64,000 bases of DNA, from assembly GCA_025351345.1 (NCBI GenBank), contig JANXWB010000010.1, positions 86,330 through 150,329 of the forward strand. The letters are read 5' to 3'. This DNA comes from Synechococcales cyanobacterium GL140_1_metabat_312. Its GTDB lineage: Bacteria > Cyanobacteriota > Cyanobacteriia > Leptolyngbyales > Leptolyngbyaceae. Below are positions 28,946 to 33,143 of this stretch, one piece after another; within the stretch, counting starts at the first letter, position 1, and each line of letters starts with the position of its first letter. A model generated the notes under the pieces. That model saw only the letters and a program-made list of their open reading frames with translations, made no database searches and had not been told where the DNA came from. Both the position numbers and the translations under genes were made by a program.

Positions 28946-29881
28946 ATGCAGAACCTAAATCGACCGACTGACTCAACAAGTAATCCGCCAGACCATCCGT
29001 TAGACCATCCGCCGGAAAATTCACAAGGTAATCTACAAAGCTCAATCGCCAATGCTGCTGTCCATCCGATCGTCTCGGCAGATTGGTTGAGGCTTCACCT
29101 TGAAGATTCTAGTGTCATCGTAATCGATTGTCGATTTTCCCTCATGGAACCTGCCGCTGGCAGAAAGCAATACGATTTGGGTCACATCCAAGGCGCACAT
29201 TACCTCGATCTCAACCAAGATTTATCAGAAAAAGTCCAAGCCCACGGCGGTCGCCATCCCTTGCCTGATGTCCAAATCTTCAGCTCAAAACTACGGGCCA
29301 TGGGGATTGATGATGACACTTGGGTAGTGCTATACGACTCCGCCCGTCTCTCATATGCTGCTAGAGCTTGGTGGCTGTTACGGTATCTCGGCCACGATCG
29401 GACCTTACTTTTGAATGGCGGATGGCAAGCTTGGACCGGAATGCATTACCCCATCACGAAAGAATTACCTCAAACAACGTCCGGCAATTTCATCCCAGTT
29501 GTTCAATCCGATTGGACCGTTGATATTAATAACGTTAGAGCGGCCATAAATACCCCTGGCAACGTGTTGATAGATTCACGGGAAACAGTCCGGTACCGGG
29601 GCGATCGCGAACCGATTGACCCGATCGCTGGCCATATTCCAGGAGCGATCAATTATCCCTGGCAACAGGTCACAGACGAGCGCGGATATATTAATGCCGA
29701 ACTCCAAGCCGATCGATGGGCCAGTCTACTAGACAGCCTCGAAGACAACGGCAACACCGAAATCATTGTCTATTGCGGGTCAGGCGTTACCGCTTGTGTG
29801 AATCTGCTGTCTCTATCGCTAATGGGACACCACGCCAAACTCTACGTCGGCGGCTGGAGCGATTGGTGTTCTTACCCTTAA
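28946..29881 (+). CDS. Sulfurtransferase, two-rhodanese-domain (3-mercaptopyruvate type)
   Basis: 311 residues after an Asn/Pro-rich ~35-residue N-terminus. Two rhodanese domains: domain 1 (~50-170) with VIDCRFSLMEPAAGRKQYDL and GHIQGAHYLDL but no catalytic cysteine, and domain 2 (~190-305) ending in the active-site loop YCGSGVTAC (Cys277). The CGSGVTA loop is the form in mercaptopyruvate sulfurtransferases; thiosulfate sulfurtransferases usually have a basic CRKGVT loop. The enzyme transfers sulfane sulfur to thiols or cyanide in the cytosol. It stands alone and converges on the beta-barrel gene. Confidence 0.92.
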   Translation: MQNLNRPTDSTSNPPDHPLDHPPENSQGNLQSSIANAAVHPIVSADWLRLHLEDSSVIVIDCRFSLMEPAAGRKQYDLGHIQGAHYLDLNQDLSEKVQAHGGRHPLPDVQIFSSKLRAMGIDDDTWVVLYDSARLSYAARAWWLLRYLGHDRTLLLNGGWQAWTGMHYPITKELPQTTSGNFIPVVQSDWTVDINNVRAAINTPGNVLIDSRETVRYRGDREPIDPIAGHIPGAINYPWQQVTDERGYINAELQADRWASLLDSLEDNGNTEIIVYCGSGVTACVNLLSLSLMGHHAKLYVGGWSDWCSYP

Positions 29882-29907: not shown

Positions 29908-31197
29908 TTAAAAGATTGCAACATTAAAGTTAAACCCCAACCCAAAAATCCAGCTATTCGGTTCGATTCGCTTTTCGCTAGAAACTCCCATACTTCGGCC
30001 CCCAAAAGCATTAAGCGACATCCGATCGTTCAGGTTATAGCTCAAGTTCGCCCCTAAATAATGAGAAACATCATCCCGCGATTGCTCAGTAAAGTGGGTC
30101 CAAGAGGCTTGATAATCCAGTCCAGTACTGATCCGAGGTGAAAGTTTATAGCTGAGTGAAATCTGCCCCCCATTCACCAACCGATCGTATTTTTCAATGT
30201 CACCCGTAAGATTCCAGCGAAACTGATAGGCTGTGATGAGATTAAGAGAAGGGCTAAGAGGATCTTGACGCGTAAGATCAAACCGCAACGAATGTTCATT
30301 AAAAAATCGTACGCCCTGAAACAAGTTTTTTATGTCTTCCTTAGCCGTCGTCAATTGTTGATAACTCCAACCAATTTCACTACTCAGCCGAGGGGTCAAC
30401 TGGCGATAGAGTCCCACCTTCAGTCGTAGCTCGTCATAGTTGAGTCGAGAAAATGTCCCATACCGGAGAATATTAGACTGCGCCAACACTAACAAATAGG
30501 TTTTTGGGCTAAGGCGCGGCAAATAATACAATGCCAATCCTGTCCCTGCTACACCATCGGTCTGCAAAGGAATTGAAGAAAAGACGTTGTCGGTCTGAAA
30601 ATAATTAAAATGTCCCAATAAGTATAATGATGGCGCAGGGCGGGGCGCAGGCGGAGGAGTGACGGGGGGAGTTTCACGAATTTTAATAGTTCCTAGTTCC
30701 GGGTCAGAACCAGATTCGAGCGGTTCGACGATGGCTGGGGAAGTCTCAGGGATAGGAGGAGGTGTAACGGGCGAAGGCGTAACGGGCGACAATTCAGGAT
30801 CTGAGACGACGGGAACTTTAGGCTTAATTAAATTGATTGTGGGATTAACGTTGGGGTCTAGTTTGAAATCGCCTTTTGGCTCGACACGCAGATCTAACTT
30901 AGGCAATTCAGAGTTCAGGGGTTGTTGAGACCGATCGGGTCGCCGAAAGTGATCGGAGTGGGGAGGACGATCGGGTCTCGGAGGGTTATCAGGTCGCCGG
31001 GGCTGATCTGTAATAGGGGTATTGACGATCGTATCGGTCAGAATCACCGAATTGTCCGCCAATGTTGTCAACGGTGTCATCATCACCGCGATCATCGGCC
31101 CAACCGTAATAGTCCCCGCCGATCGCAAGCACCAAAGAAACGATTGGAATCGCTTGAAAAATTTAGACCCGCCCCTCAAAGTCGAATATTTCGTCAT
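29908..31197 (-). CDS. Proline-rich outer-membrane beta-barrel protein (putative)
   Basis: 429 residues, family not recognised. It has an N-terminal signal-like segment (GTITVGPMIAVMMTPLTTLA). A ~150-residue Pro/Arg/Asp-rich linker follows, with repeated RRPDxPP and SPVTP units. The ~240-residue C-terminal domain alternates polar and hydrophobic residues (LYLLGHFNYFQTDNVF, LRLKVGLYRQLTPRLSSEIG, ISLSYKLSPRISTGLDYQAS) and ends with phenylalanine in GLGFNFNVAIF, the beta-signal form of outer-membrane barrels. The linker could span peptidoglycan. It is divergent from a proline-rich FecR-domain gene, suggesting a functional pair at the cell envelope (inference). It may be a porin-like, adhesin-anchoring or secretion barrel. 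Confidence 0.6.
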   Translation of the reverse strand: MTKYSTLRGGSKFFKRFQSFLWCLRSAGTITVGPMIAVMMTPLTTLADNSVILTDTIVNTPITDQPRRPDNPPRPDRPPHSDHFRRPDRSQQPLNSELPKLDLRVEPKGDFKLDPNVNPTINLIKPKVPVVSDPELSPVTPSPVTPPPIPETSPAIVEPLESGSDPELGTIKIRETPPVTPPPAPRPAPSLYLLGHFNYFQTDNVFSSIPLQTDGVAGTGLALYYLPRLSPKTYLLVLAQSNILRYGTFSRLNYDELRLKVGLYRQLTPRLSSEIGWSYQQLTTAKEDIKNLFQGVRFFNEHSLRFDLTRQDPLSPSLNLITAYQFRWNLTGDIEKYDRLVNGGQISLSYKLSPRISTGLDYQASWTHFTEQSRDDVSHYLGANLSYNLNDRMSLNAFGGRSMGVSSEKRIEPNSWIFGLGFNFNVAIF

Positions 31198-31339
31198 ATT
31201 GCCACATCTGCTTCTACGACCACTCTTCCGCCCTTTTGTCAGCCATCGTACTCATTCTCTCAAGGCCAGACTAGCCATTTCTTAGCTCTGTACTTATACT
31301 GAGAAAGTGCATAAACGATCATACGCAGAAATTAGACAA

Positions 31340-31567
31340 TTAGAGCTTTAGTGTATAGAAATCAGGAGCGTTGTTAAAATTAACCGATTGCAATGGTCTA
31401 CGACGACGTTTCACAGATTTTAGAGGCTTCAAGTAACAGATCTGAGATTTACTGTTGTCTAGATAACAGCCATTGTTGCAAAATTTATACACTTCTGCTG
31501 CATCTACTAGTAACGACCAAAATATTGCTAAAAGAATCTGACCGAATTGAAATAAGTAATATTTCAT
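31340..31567 (-). CDS. Possible small secreted cysteine-containing peptide (hypothetical)
   Basis: A 75-residue open frame in the gap between the divergent beta-barrel and FecR genes. A perfect AGGAGG (31572-31577) stands 4 nt before the ATG. The product starts with a signal-like hydrophobic stretch (YYLFQFGQILLAIFWSLLVDAA), then CNNGC and a third Cys, then a basic run KRRRRP. I recognise no homologue. The region is AT-rich, so chance is possible; the RBS and the signal-plus-cysteine layout are the only support. Confidence 0.35.
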   Translation of the reverse strand: MKYYLFQFGQILLAIFWSLLVDAAEVYKFCNNGCYLDNSKSQICYLKPLKSVKRRRRPLQSVNFNNAPDFYTLKL

Positions 31568-31679
31568 ACTACCTCCTAGAAATTCCCGAGATTCTAGGCT
31601 TTACGTTCAGAAACTACTGGTTGTTCACGAAGATTACTTAATTCACTGATACGTTGTCACCAGTTGTCGGAGTTATCCT

Positions 31680-33143
31680 ATGCGCGCACAAATCAAGTTC
31701 CCTGGGAAATGGGTACAGCTCGTCATTATAACGACTTTCAATGGAAGTTTGATTTCGGCTACCCCTCCAGTATTCGCTGGACCTATTCCCCTCATCCAAG
31801 CCACTCTACGTAAAGTAGTCAATCACGTTGACCTAATTCCGTTTAGCCAATCAGCCCGCAGCGCCCAAGTCAACGATCGGCTGAGCAAATCTGGCGATGC
31901 AATCAAGACGCAACGAGCAGCCCGCACGGAACTAAAATTTAACGATGGAACATTAGCTAAAGTCGGCGAATTAGCTACTTTTCGCTTCACACCTAATACT
32001 CGCCGCTTTGAATTAGGCAATGGGACTTATTTGTTTTTAGTTCCTCCTGGTCGAGGCAATACCGAATTTAATACCCCCAATGCAAAAGCAGGGATTAAAG
32101 GATCTGCACTTTTCATTCGCTACATTGAAGAAAGTGATACGACTATTATGGGGGCATTAACAAATAATCCCCTCGGACCGATGGATATTACGGTAGGAGG
32201 CAAGACACAGAATTTATATGCAGGCCAAATGGTCGTTGCGATTAAAGATCGTATCGATCGCATTCAGACCTTCGATTTAAAGACATTTTTTCAAACGAGT
32301 CCTATGTATCGAGATATCGATGTCATGGACCCTGATTTACAGGCGGTTCGTCAGGAAATGGCTGATGCTATTACTACTCAAGTGGCTGCGATCGGAGCAC
32401 TGCCCACTCAAGTTGCAACTACACCCAAACCTCGAATTTCTTCTGATCCAACATCAAGTATGCCAAGAAGAGAGTCAACCGAGGCTCGCGAAATTCTCAA
32501 TGATCCCAATCGCAACCAGCCGATCGTTCGACCAAATCCGCCAAATTTAATTGAGCCTCCGATTGTTCAGCCAAATCTGCCAAATTTAATTGAGCCTCCG
32601 ATTGTTCGACCAAATCCGCCAAATTTAATTGAGCCTCCGATCGTTCCCCCTAATGGGTCAAATCCGGGGATTCCGATCGTTCAGCCAACTCCGCCAAACA
32701 TAAAAGATTCGATCGTTACTCCTCCGATAACCGATCTACCTATTACTCCTCTTCCAACGATCCCACCGATTACTCCTCCAGTAAGGACTCCACCTGTCAC
32801 GCTTCCACCTTCAACAGTCCCACCGATTACTCCTCCAGTAACCAATCTACCTGTCACGCTTCCACCAGTTGTTCCGCAGATAATAACTCTACCCGTTACT
32901 CCTTCGGGAACGACTCCTCAGATAACGCTCCCACCGATTATTCCTCAGATAACACCACCGACTACCCTTCCGATAACGATTCCATCTGTTACTCCTCTTC
33001 CAACGATCCCACCGATTACTCCTGCAATACCTGCTATTCCTGCGAGACCGATTACTCCTGCAATACCTGCTACTCCTGCGAGACCAGGTAGTCCTGCCAC
33101 TCCTGCGATACCTGCCTCACCTACTCCAACTGTTATTCCATAA
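31680..33143 (+). CDS. FecR domain-containing protein with long proline-rich repeat region
   Basis: 487 residues: signal peptide (~1-32, ending PPVFAG), then a FecR domain (~40-210: LSKSGDAIKTQRAARTELKF, GTLAKVGELATFRFT, NAKAGIKGSALFIRY). The C-terminal ~220 residues are Pro/Thr/Ile-rich. They begin with three to four near-identical 13-residue units (RPNPPNLIEPPIV, 39-bp DNA repeats at about 32521-32642), then PPITPP-type and finally IPAxPA-type units. FecR domains in cyanobacteria often sit in exported envelope proteins, not only in iron-signalling anti-sigma factors; no sigma factor gene is adjacent. The divergent neighbour is a proline-rich beta-barrel protein. Confidence 0.8.
   Translation: MRAQIKFPGKWVQLVIITTFNGSLISATPPVFAGPIPLIQATLRKVVNHVDLIPFSQSARSAQVNDRLSKSGDAIKTQRAARTELKFNDGTLAKVGELATFRFTPNTRRFELGNGTYLFLVPPGRGNTEFNTPNAKAGIKGSALFIRYIEESDTTIMGALTNNPLGPMDITVGGKTQNLYAGQMVVAIKDRIDRIQTFDLKTFFQTSPMYRDIDVMDPDLQAVRQEMADAITTQVAAIGALPTQVATTPKPRISSDPTSSMPRRESTEAREILNDPNRNQPIVRPNPPNLIEPPIVQPNLPNLIEPPIVRPNPPNLIEPPIVPPNGSNPGIPIVQPTPPNIKDSIVTPPITDLPITPLPTIPPITPPVRTPPVTLPPSTVPPITPPVTNLPVTLPPVVPQIITLPVTPSGTTPQITLPPIIPQITPPTTLPITIPSVTPLPTIPPITPAIPAIPARPITPAIPATPARPGSPATPAIPASPTPTVIP

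Follow-up and report, generated by a model that had tools for sequence, protein, structure and literature searches.

The stretch of DNA considered here (hereafter the window) is 64,000 nucleotides long and comes from contig JANXWB010000010.1 (positions 86,330 to 150,329 of the forward strand) of the Synechococcales cyanobacterium GL140_1_metabat_312. It carries two divergent genes, one for an outer-membrane β-barrel protein (P0001, 429 amino acids (aa); open reading frame at 29908-31197, minus strand) and the other for an exported protein with a FecR fold (P0002, 487 aa; 31680-33143, plus strand), and this article discusses the pair together with a Ser/Thr kinase containing a CHASE2 domain, its fairly probable partner in surface signaling. 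Homologues of the barrel gene, which has weak matches to Pfam barrel families, are found in 42 of 58 relatives and those of the FecR-fold gene in 47 of the 58. The two genes share a putative regulatory gap of 482 base pairs (bp) (31198-31679), so an earlier sequence-only reading of the window, which described two divergent exported proteins across about 480 bp, was right on this point, and the divergent layout is kept in 65 of 80 loci. The gap contains a conserved block, TAGCCATTTC...GTACTTATACT (31272-31303), which is promoter-like (TAGCCA-17-TATACT) and whose core is identical in the window and three relatives; promoter matches in the 482-bp gap were no more frequent than in shuffles. As the same reading had noted, neither a TonB receptor nor an extracytoplasmic function (ECF) sigma factor is encoded by the adjacent genes; these specify a rhodanese and a TPR protein, and the farther genes of the window were read by eye only.

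In P0001 a linker of some 143 residues separates the signal-like N-terminus from the C-terminal barrel domain. The probable signal peptide (residues 1 to about 47; 31057-31197, minus strand) was recognized by eye, and the barrel domain (residues 191-429; 29911-30627, minus strand) is predicted by AlphaFold2 (AF2) from a 64-sequence alignment to have 12 strands, with a mean predicted local distance difference test (pLDDT) value of 89.6 (model m1d06e7aab53c). The best PDB neighbors of the model in Foldseek are known generic outer-membrane barrels, including a COG4313 channel (4rl8) and FapF (5o68), and the C-terminal phenylalanine is invariant among 26 aligned sequences. P0001 thus has the features of an outer-membrane β-barrel, that is, an even number of amphipathic strands (12, predicted), a C-terminal aromatic residue and a signal-like N-terminus, and Pfam and NCBIfam give generic barrel matches only (DUF2490 and Phenol_MetA_deg, weak) and a weak match to EpsL. 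The sequence-only reading had described a barrel ending in Phe behind a proline-rich linker of about 150 residues; the Phe and the linker stand, but the proline richness is not conserved, since the proline fraction of the linker varies from 0.04 to 0.22 among the barrel relatives. What is conserved in the linker is a short motif, D-P-E-L-G-x-[LI]-[RK]-[LVI] (E in 57, L in 60 and G in 61 of the 64 aligned sequences), which reads DPELGTIKIRE in P0001 (residues 165-175; 30673-30705, minus strand) and is found between one and six times in many relatives. Because it falls in a low-confidence part of the AF2 model, this periplasmic motif would be a docking motif rather than a part of the barrel, and it might, as a guess, dock on the FecR domain. 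As a genome-wide motif it gave 4 DNA matches in the window's genome versus 5 for the reversed control, that is, no sign of it elsewhere.

In P0002 a signal-like segment precedes an all-β domain, and a conserved helix separates this domain from the Pro/Thr-rich tail. The probable signal peptide (residues 1-33, ...PPVFA|GP; 31680-31778, plus strand), again read by eye, is followed directly by the FecR/PupR-type all-β domain (residues 41-197; 31800-32270, plus strand), and the protein has no N-terminal anti-sigma domain, no transmembrane helix and no STN subdomain. By sequence the FecR assignment is weak: PF04773 matches residues 73-148 with E = 6e-4, under the curated cut-off, and lies just above the cut-off in the genome search, FecR is the only family found by Pfam in P0002, with no LysM, and a PDB sequence search with the FecR domain gave no match. 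The fold is solid, with a pLDDT of 85.9 in the AF2 model (m421886747d72) and Foldseek matches, at an E value of about 1e-5, with the PupR periplasmic domain (6ovk_R) and with the anti-sigma factor 4m0h, in alignments that span just 133-149 columns of these 212-216-residue targets. The helix predicted after the domain (residues 218-240; 32331-32399, plus strand), in which V223 and E226 are invariant, occupies the place of the STN subdomain of PupR. The tail (32427-33140, plus strand) is of low complexity and contains 39-bp and 36-bp tandem repeats; nearly all relatives have a low-complexity tail, but the tails vary in sequence and range from about 40 to 620 aa in length. Therefore, of the FecR-domain protein with a proline/threonine-rich tail proposed from the sequence, the fold is confirmed and a tail is present, although neither the sequence nor the length of the tail is conserved, and the view that neither protein belongs to a recognized specific family agrees with the generic barrel and sub-threshold FecR matches. 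The similar proline tracts, which had been taken as a sign that the two proteins match, are weak evidence because the linker tract is unconserved and even close relatives have different tails.

Some further observations were made on the FecR proteins. The tails in L124, L126, L130, L132, L135-L137, L139 and other Nostocales loci end in SPST, RPST, KPST or LPST, the remaining tail being unrelated, and these ends are possibly a C-terminal signal. In addition, contigs often end within the tail repeats (L071, L087, L096, L107, L111, L121, L141 and L142), so the tails are recombination-prone or hard to assemble. The window's genome also encodes a second FecR-domain protein (G000:C90; L001, L154), which does not belong to the paired family and whose gene is close to a Ser/Thr kinase-like one.

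The conservation of the pair was followed in two directions. A profile of the FecR protein gave 80 loci, all cyanobacterial, and the barrel profile, which was then run on these loci, found a barrel near the FecR gene in 66 of them (65 divergent and 1 same-strand); most of the 14 barrel-less loci hold FecR paralogues in different neighborhoods. In a second, class-wide sample of 116 genomes, for which a completeness of at least 95% was requested, there were 47 barrel places, and a FecR gene lay within 4 kb in 43 of them (32 divergent and 11 same-strand), the other four being in assemblies with roughly 100 contigs or more. The barrel-FecR pairing is real and old across the cyanobacteria. The sequence-only reading had named rare adjacency of the two genes as the observation that would speak against it; the frequencies found (66/80 and 43/47) are the opposite and strongly support its matched envelope pair outside the classical FecIR system. 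No plasmid-borne copies of either gene were found, and nothing relevant was found in the literature on FecR with β-barrels in cyanobacteria. A second, diverged same-strand FecR-barrel pair (L155, L161 and L162) is present in several genomes that also hold the main pair, and the L155 barrel matches BBP2_2. The rhodanese gene (28946-29881 of the window) adjoins the barrel gene in 41 of the 80 loci, distant orders included. A role for the rhodanese as a fourth partner was weighed but dropped, because it is without an apparent signal peptide and was not seen in the same-strand loci.

The sequence-only reading missed that there is a third component. This is a transmembrane Ser/Thr kinase with a CHASE2 domain, and it tracks the barrel almost perfectly. 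CHASE2-type proteins recur among the neighbors in 18 of the 80 FecR loci, in several distinct arrangements, and Pfam splits them into Ser/Thr kinases of about 800-880 aa and adenylate cyclases of about 650-690 aa. A search of the 116 genomes with a profile of the kinase-type CHASE2 region gave both kinase and barrel in 44, the barrel only in 1, the kinase only in none and neither in 71 (Fisher p = 2e-31, uncorrected for relatedness), and a FecR gene was present in 43 of the 44 genomes having both. In the first sample, 23 genomes from 23 other families had both in 8 cases and neither in 15; three of all 58 genomes in that sample depart from the pattern: G004, which is 82% complete, has the kinase only, G013 lacks the kinase, and G011 has at most a fragment of it. 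The CHASE2-cyclases do not track the barrel: 18 genomes have them but lack the kinase, and 17 of these are barrel-negative. Because of these kinase-less genomes, the pattern cannot be put down to genome size or to general CHASE2 content. No description of the three genes together in cyanobacteria was found in the literature searched, most subscription journals being outside the search.

The genes are also linked. Kinase and FecR genes are no more than 4 kb apart in 15 of the 44 genomes, which represent 6 families, and nearly always the barrel is there too. Two arrangements occur: kinase, FecR and barrel are all on one strand (L156, L163, L173 and L174), or the kinase is convergent with FecR and the barrel divergent (L164, L175, L176 and L177). 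In G118 the barrel is on a different contig from the linked kinase and FecR genes. The window's genome has one orthologue of the kinase (G000:C26, 803 aa), unlinked, with 37% identity over about 800 residues to the linked kinases, a bit score of 455 versus less than 200 for the other CHASE2 proteins of this genome, and the catalytic motifs GSGGFG, HRDIKPSN and DFG intact. In many linked loci (L164, 701-1222; L175, 2495-3022; L176, 13004-13543; L177, 11427-12011) the neighbor of the kinase gene encodes a small conserved protein (MNRLSIFVDGNNMFYAQQKNGWFFDPRRVLE) that looks NYN-like by eye. Furthermore, CHASE2-adenylate cyclases adjoin a second FecR gene in six loci (L068, L073, L081, L084, L085 and L120), where the barrel is followed on the same strand by the second FecR-type gene and the cyclase, and the main FecR gene is divergent; one barrel between two FecR genes plus a cyclase is the layout closest to the NsrA-CyaK system of Sinorhizobium meliloti.

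This system was met again when the CHASE2 region of the kinase was compared with plasmids, the best matches being from Sinorhizobium and including CyaK of S. meliloti. The nsrA gene is directly upstream of cyaK, and NsrA, already annotated in some records as a FecR domain-containing protein, has a FecR domain (E = 2e-15), TPR repeats and a C-terminal β region described as a barrel. NsrA is an outer-membrane receptor needed, along with CyaK, for the perception of a protein signal (PMC7529298; PMC13001267), so in one organism a fused FecR and barrel feed a CHASE2 enzyme experimentally.

The pair in the window is thus fairly likely to be the outer-membrane and periplasmic half of a three-component surface signaling system that has a CHASE2 kinase as its output and works like NsrA-CyaK. 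The barrel in the outer membrane would set or sense a signal, which the soluble periplasmic FecR-fold protein would relay, presumably by physical contact on both sides, to a kinase that spans the membrane, with its CHASE2 sensor domain in the periplasm and its Ser/Thr kinase domain in the cytoplasm; the disordered FecR tail and the disordered barrel linker may span the peptidoglycan layer. The signal would run inward, from a putative ligand at the surface to putative kinase targets in the cytoplasm. The pairing, the tracking by the kinase, the linkage, the orthologue in the window's genome, the fold match to PupR, NsrA-CyaK and the BiofilmReg operon of Burkholderia, discussed below, all support this signaling system. 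A more specific version, put forward tentatively and at a little short of an even chance, is a TonB- and sigma-independent counterpart of FecA-FecR-FecI, in which the barrel acts through a soluble FecR adaptor on the Ser/Thr kinase by way of a repeated DPELGxLRL docking peptide, and which would be the first outer-membrane input to a CHASE2 Ser/Thr kinase.

Several points weigh against the signaling system. The Fisher p value overstates the evidence, as shared ancestry shapes presence and absence, and the family of the window's genome shows no linkage of the kinase gene. Whether a CHASE2 protein is of the kinase or the cyclase type was decided for most genomes from the length of the open frame, with a Pfam check on eight linked CHASE2 proteins and that of the window's genome. 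In addition, some FecR paralogues work without a barrel, as in the 14 barrel-less loci of the 80, and a hidden Markov model of the barrel gave no significant match to NsrA, whose barrel is not detectably homologous. PupR needs both of its subdomains for receptor binding (PMC7186176), and the cyanobacterial FecR protein is without the receptor-binding STN subdomain, so the interface must differ. The proposed contacts come from the comparison of genes and predicted folds.

Other explanations have to be weighed with these points. It is unlikely that the barrel exports the unfolded Pro/Thr tail of the FecR protein, or holds this protein at the surface, in the way that FapF exports amyloid subunits: the barrel does resemble both the COG4313 channel and the secretion barrel of FapF, and the tails are disordered, repetitive and variable, as is often the case for surface-exposed segments, but the likeness to FapF is generic (template modeling score 0.53, not better than for 4rl8) and FecR folds are known periplasmic signaling adaptors. 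Moreover, export explains neither the co-occurrence with the kinase (44/45) nor the kinase-FecR-barrel gene order, and tail export is ranked below signaling because the kinase is left unexplained. The matched envelope system proposed by the sequence-only reading is supported, but nothing speaks independently for a barrel that anchors the FecR protein or exports it through peptidoglycan, and the link to the CHASE2 Ser/Thr kinase and the occurrence of the FecR-TPR-barrel protein NsrA beside a CHASE2 cyclase argue for trans-envelope signaling instead.

A structural porin-peptidoglycan complex for envelope maintenance, whose state the kinase senses without a ligand, is likewise improbable and differs from the three-component signaling system chiefly in the nature of the signal; the Burkholderia FecR protein paired with a CHASE2 kinase has a peptidoglycan-binding LysM domain and both P0001 and P0002 have long flexible segments, but Pfam finds no LysM or other peptidoglycan-binding domain in either of them. 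Very improbable indeed is that the genes are independent, brought together by chance synteny with nothing but a divergent promoter in common, and that the kinase correlation arises from genome size and lineage. The flanking rhodanese is also kept (41/80), so part of the neighborhood may simply be old, but the pair persists without the rhodanese, in the divergent (32) as well as the same-strand (11) order, many barrel-negative genomes are 4-7 Mb in size and some of these carry other CHASE2 proteins, and within the family f24 three genomes (G057, G071 and G103) have neither barrel nor kinase while four others have all three genes. Chance is thus largely refuted already by the two orientations, the linkage in six families and the coordinated absence.

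For almost all bacteria it is not known what CHASE2 receptors respond to (PMC10581220, PMC5192318), and the cyanobacterial CHASE2 Ser/Thr kinases were catalogued without partners (PMC2176072). The present analysis names two candidate partners for one class of these kinases, the barrel, present in 44 of 44 kinase-bearing genomes, and the FecR protein, present in 43 of 44, and ties them to NsrA-CyaK, the sole known case of an outer-membrane barrel feeding a CHASE2 enzyme. For cyanobacteria this gives a specific and testable path by which the cell surface could act on phosphorylation in the cytoplasm. It also suggests a general role for the FecR fold as the adaptor that couples outer-membrane barrels to inner-membrane outputs of different kinds, namely sigma regulators, cyclases, histidine kinases and Ser/Thr kinases.

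Among the known systems, FapF and the COG4313 channels share the 12-strand barrel size and general fold with P0001, but their sequence relation to it is not above that of generic barrel profiles, and to our knowledge they have no link to FecR or CHASE2. The FecA-FecR-FecI and PupB-PupR-PupI systems likewise have a FecR-fold periplasmic domain between an outer-membrane barrel and an inner-membrane output (the fold match to 6ovk); the cyanobacterial system, however, is without the TonB receptor, the anti-sigma domain, the transmembrane helix of the FecR protein, the STN subdomain and the ECF sigma factor, and because of this the pair is not a member of the FecIR family. In the BiofilmReg operon of Burkholderia a periplasmic LysM-FecR protein is encoded along with a CHASE2 histidine kinase (PMC5192318), which resembles the cyanobacterial arrangement of FecR protein and CHASE2 sensor kinase and differs from it in the LysM domain, in the output through a histidine kinase and response regulator, and in that no outer-membrane barrel is reported. 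The cyanobacterial CHASE2 Ser/Thr kinases called cbSTKII have an architecture identical to that of the third component; they were catalogued as kinases only, FecR being never mentioned (PMC2176072), and no barrel partner of theirs was found in the literature searched.

The closest likeness is to NsrA-CyaK, in which an outer-membrane barrel and a FecR domain are encoded beside a CHASE2 membrane signaling enzyme and the barrel protein is required for the response of that enzyme in S. meliloti (PMC7529298, PMC13001267). The cyanobacterial genes show the same genetic coupling of FecR and barrel (66/80 and 43/47) and a CHASE2 enzyme that is linked (15/44) or co-occurring (both in 44 genomes). The difference is that FecR, TPR and barrel are joined in one protein of 1200 aa with an adenylate cyclase as the output in S. 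meliloti, whereas in cyanobacteria the proteins are separate and the proposed output is a Ser/Thr kinase. The window pair is therefore best read, with moderate confidence, as part of a split, kinase-output relative of NsrA-CyaK surface signaling.

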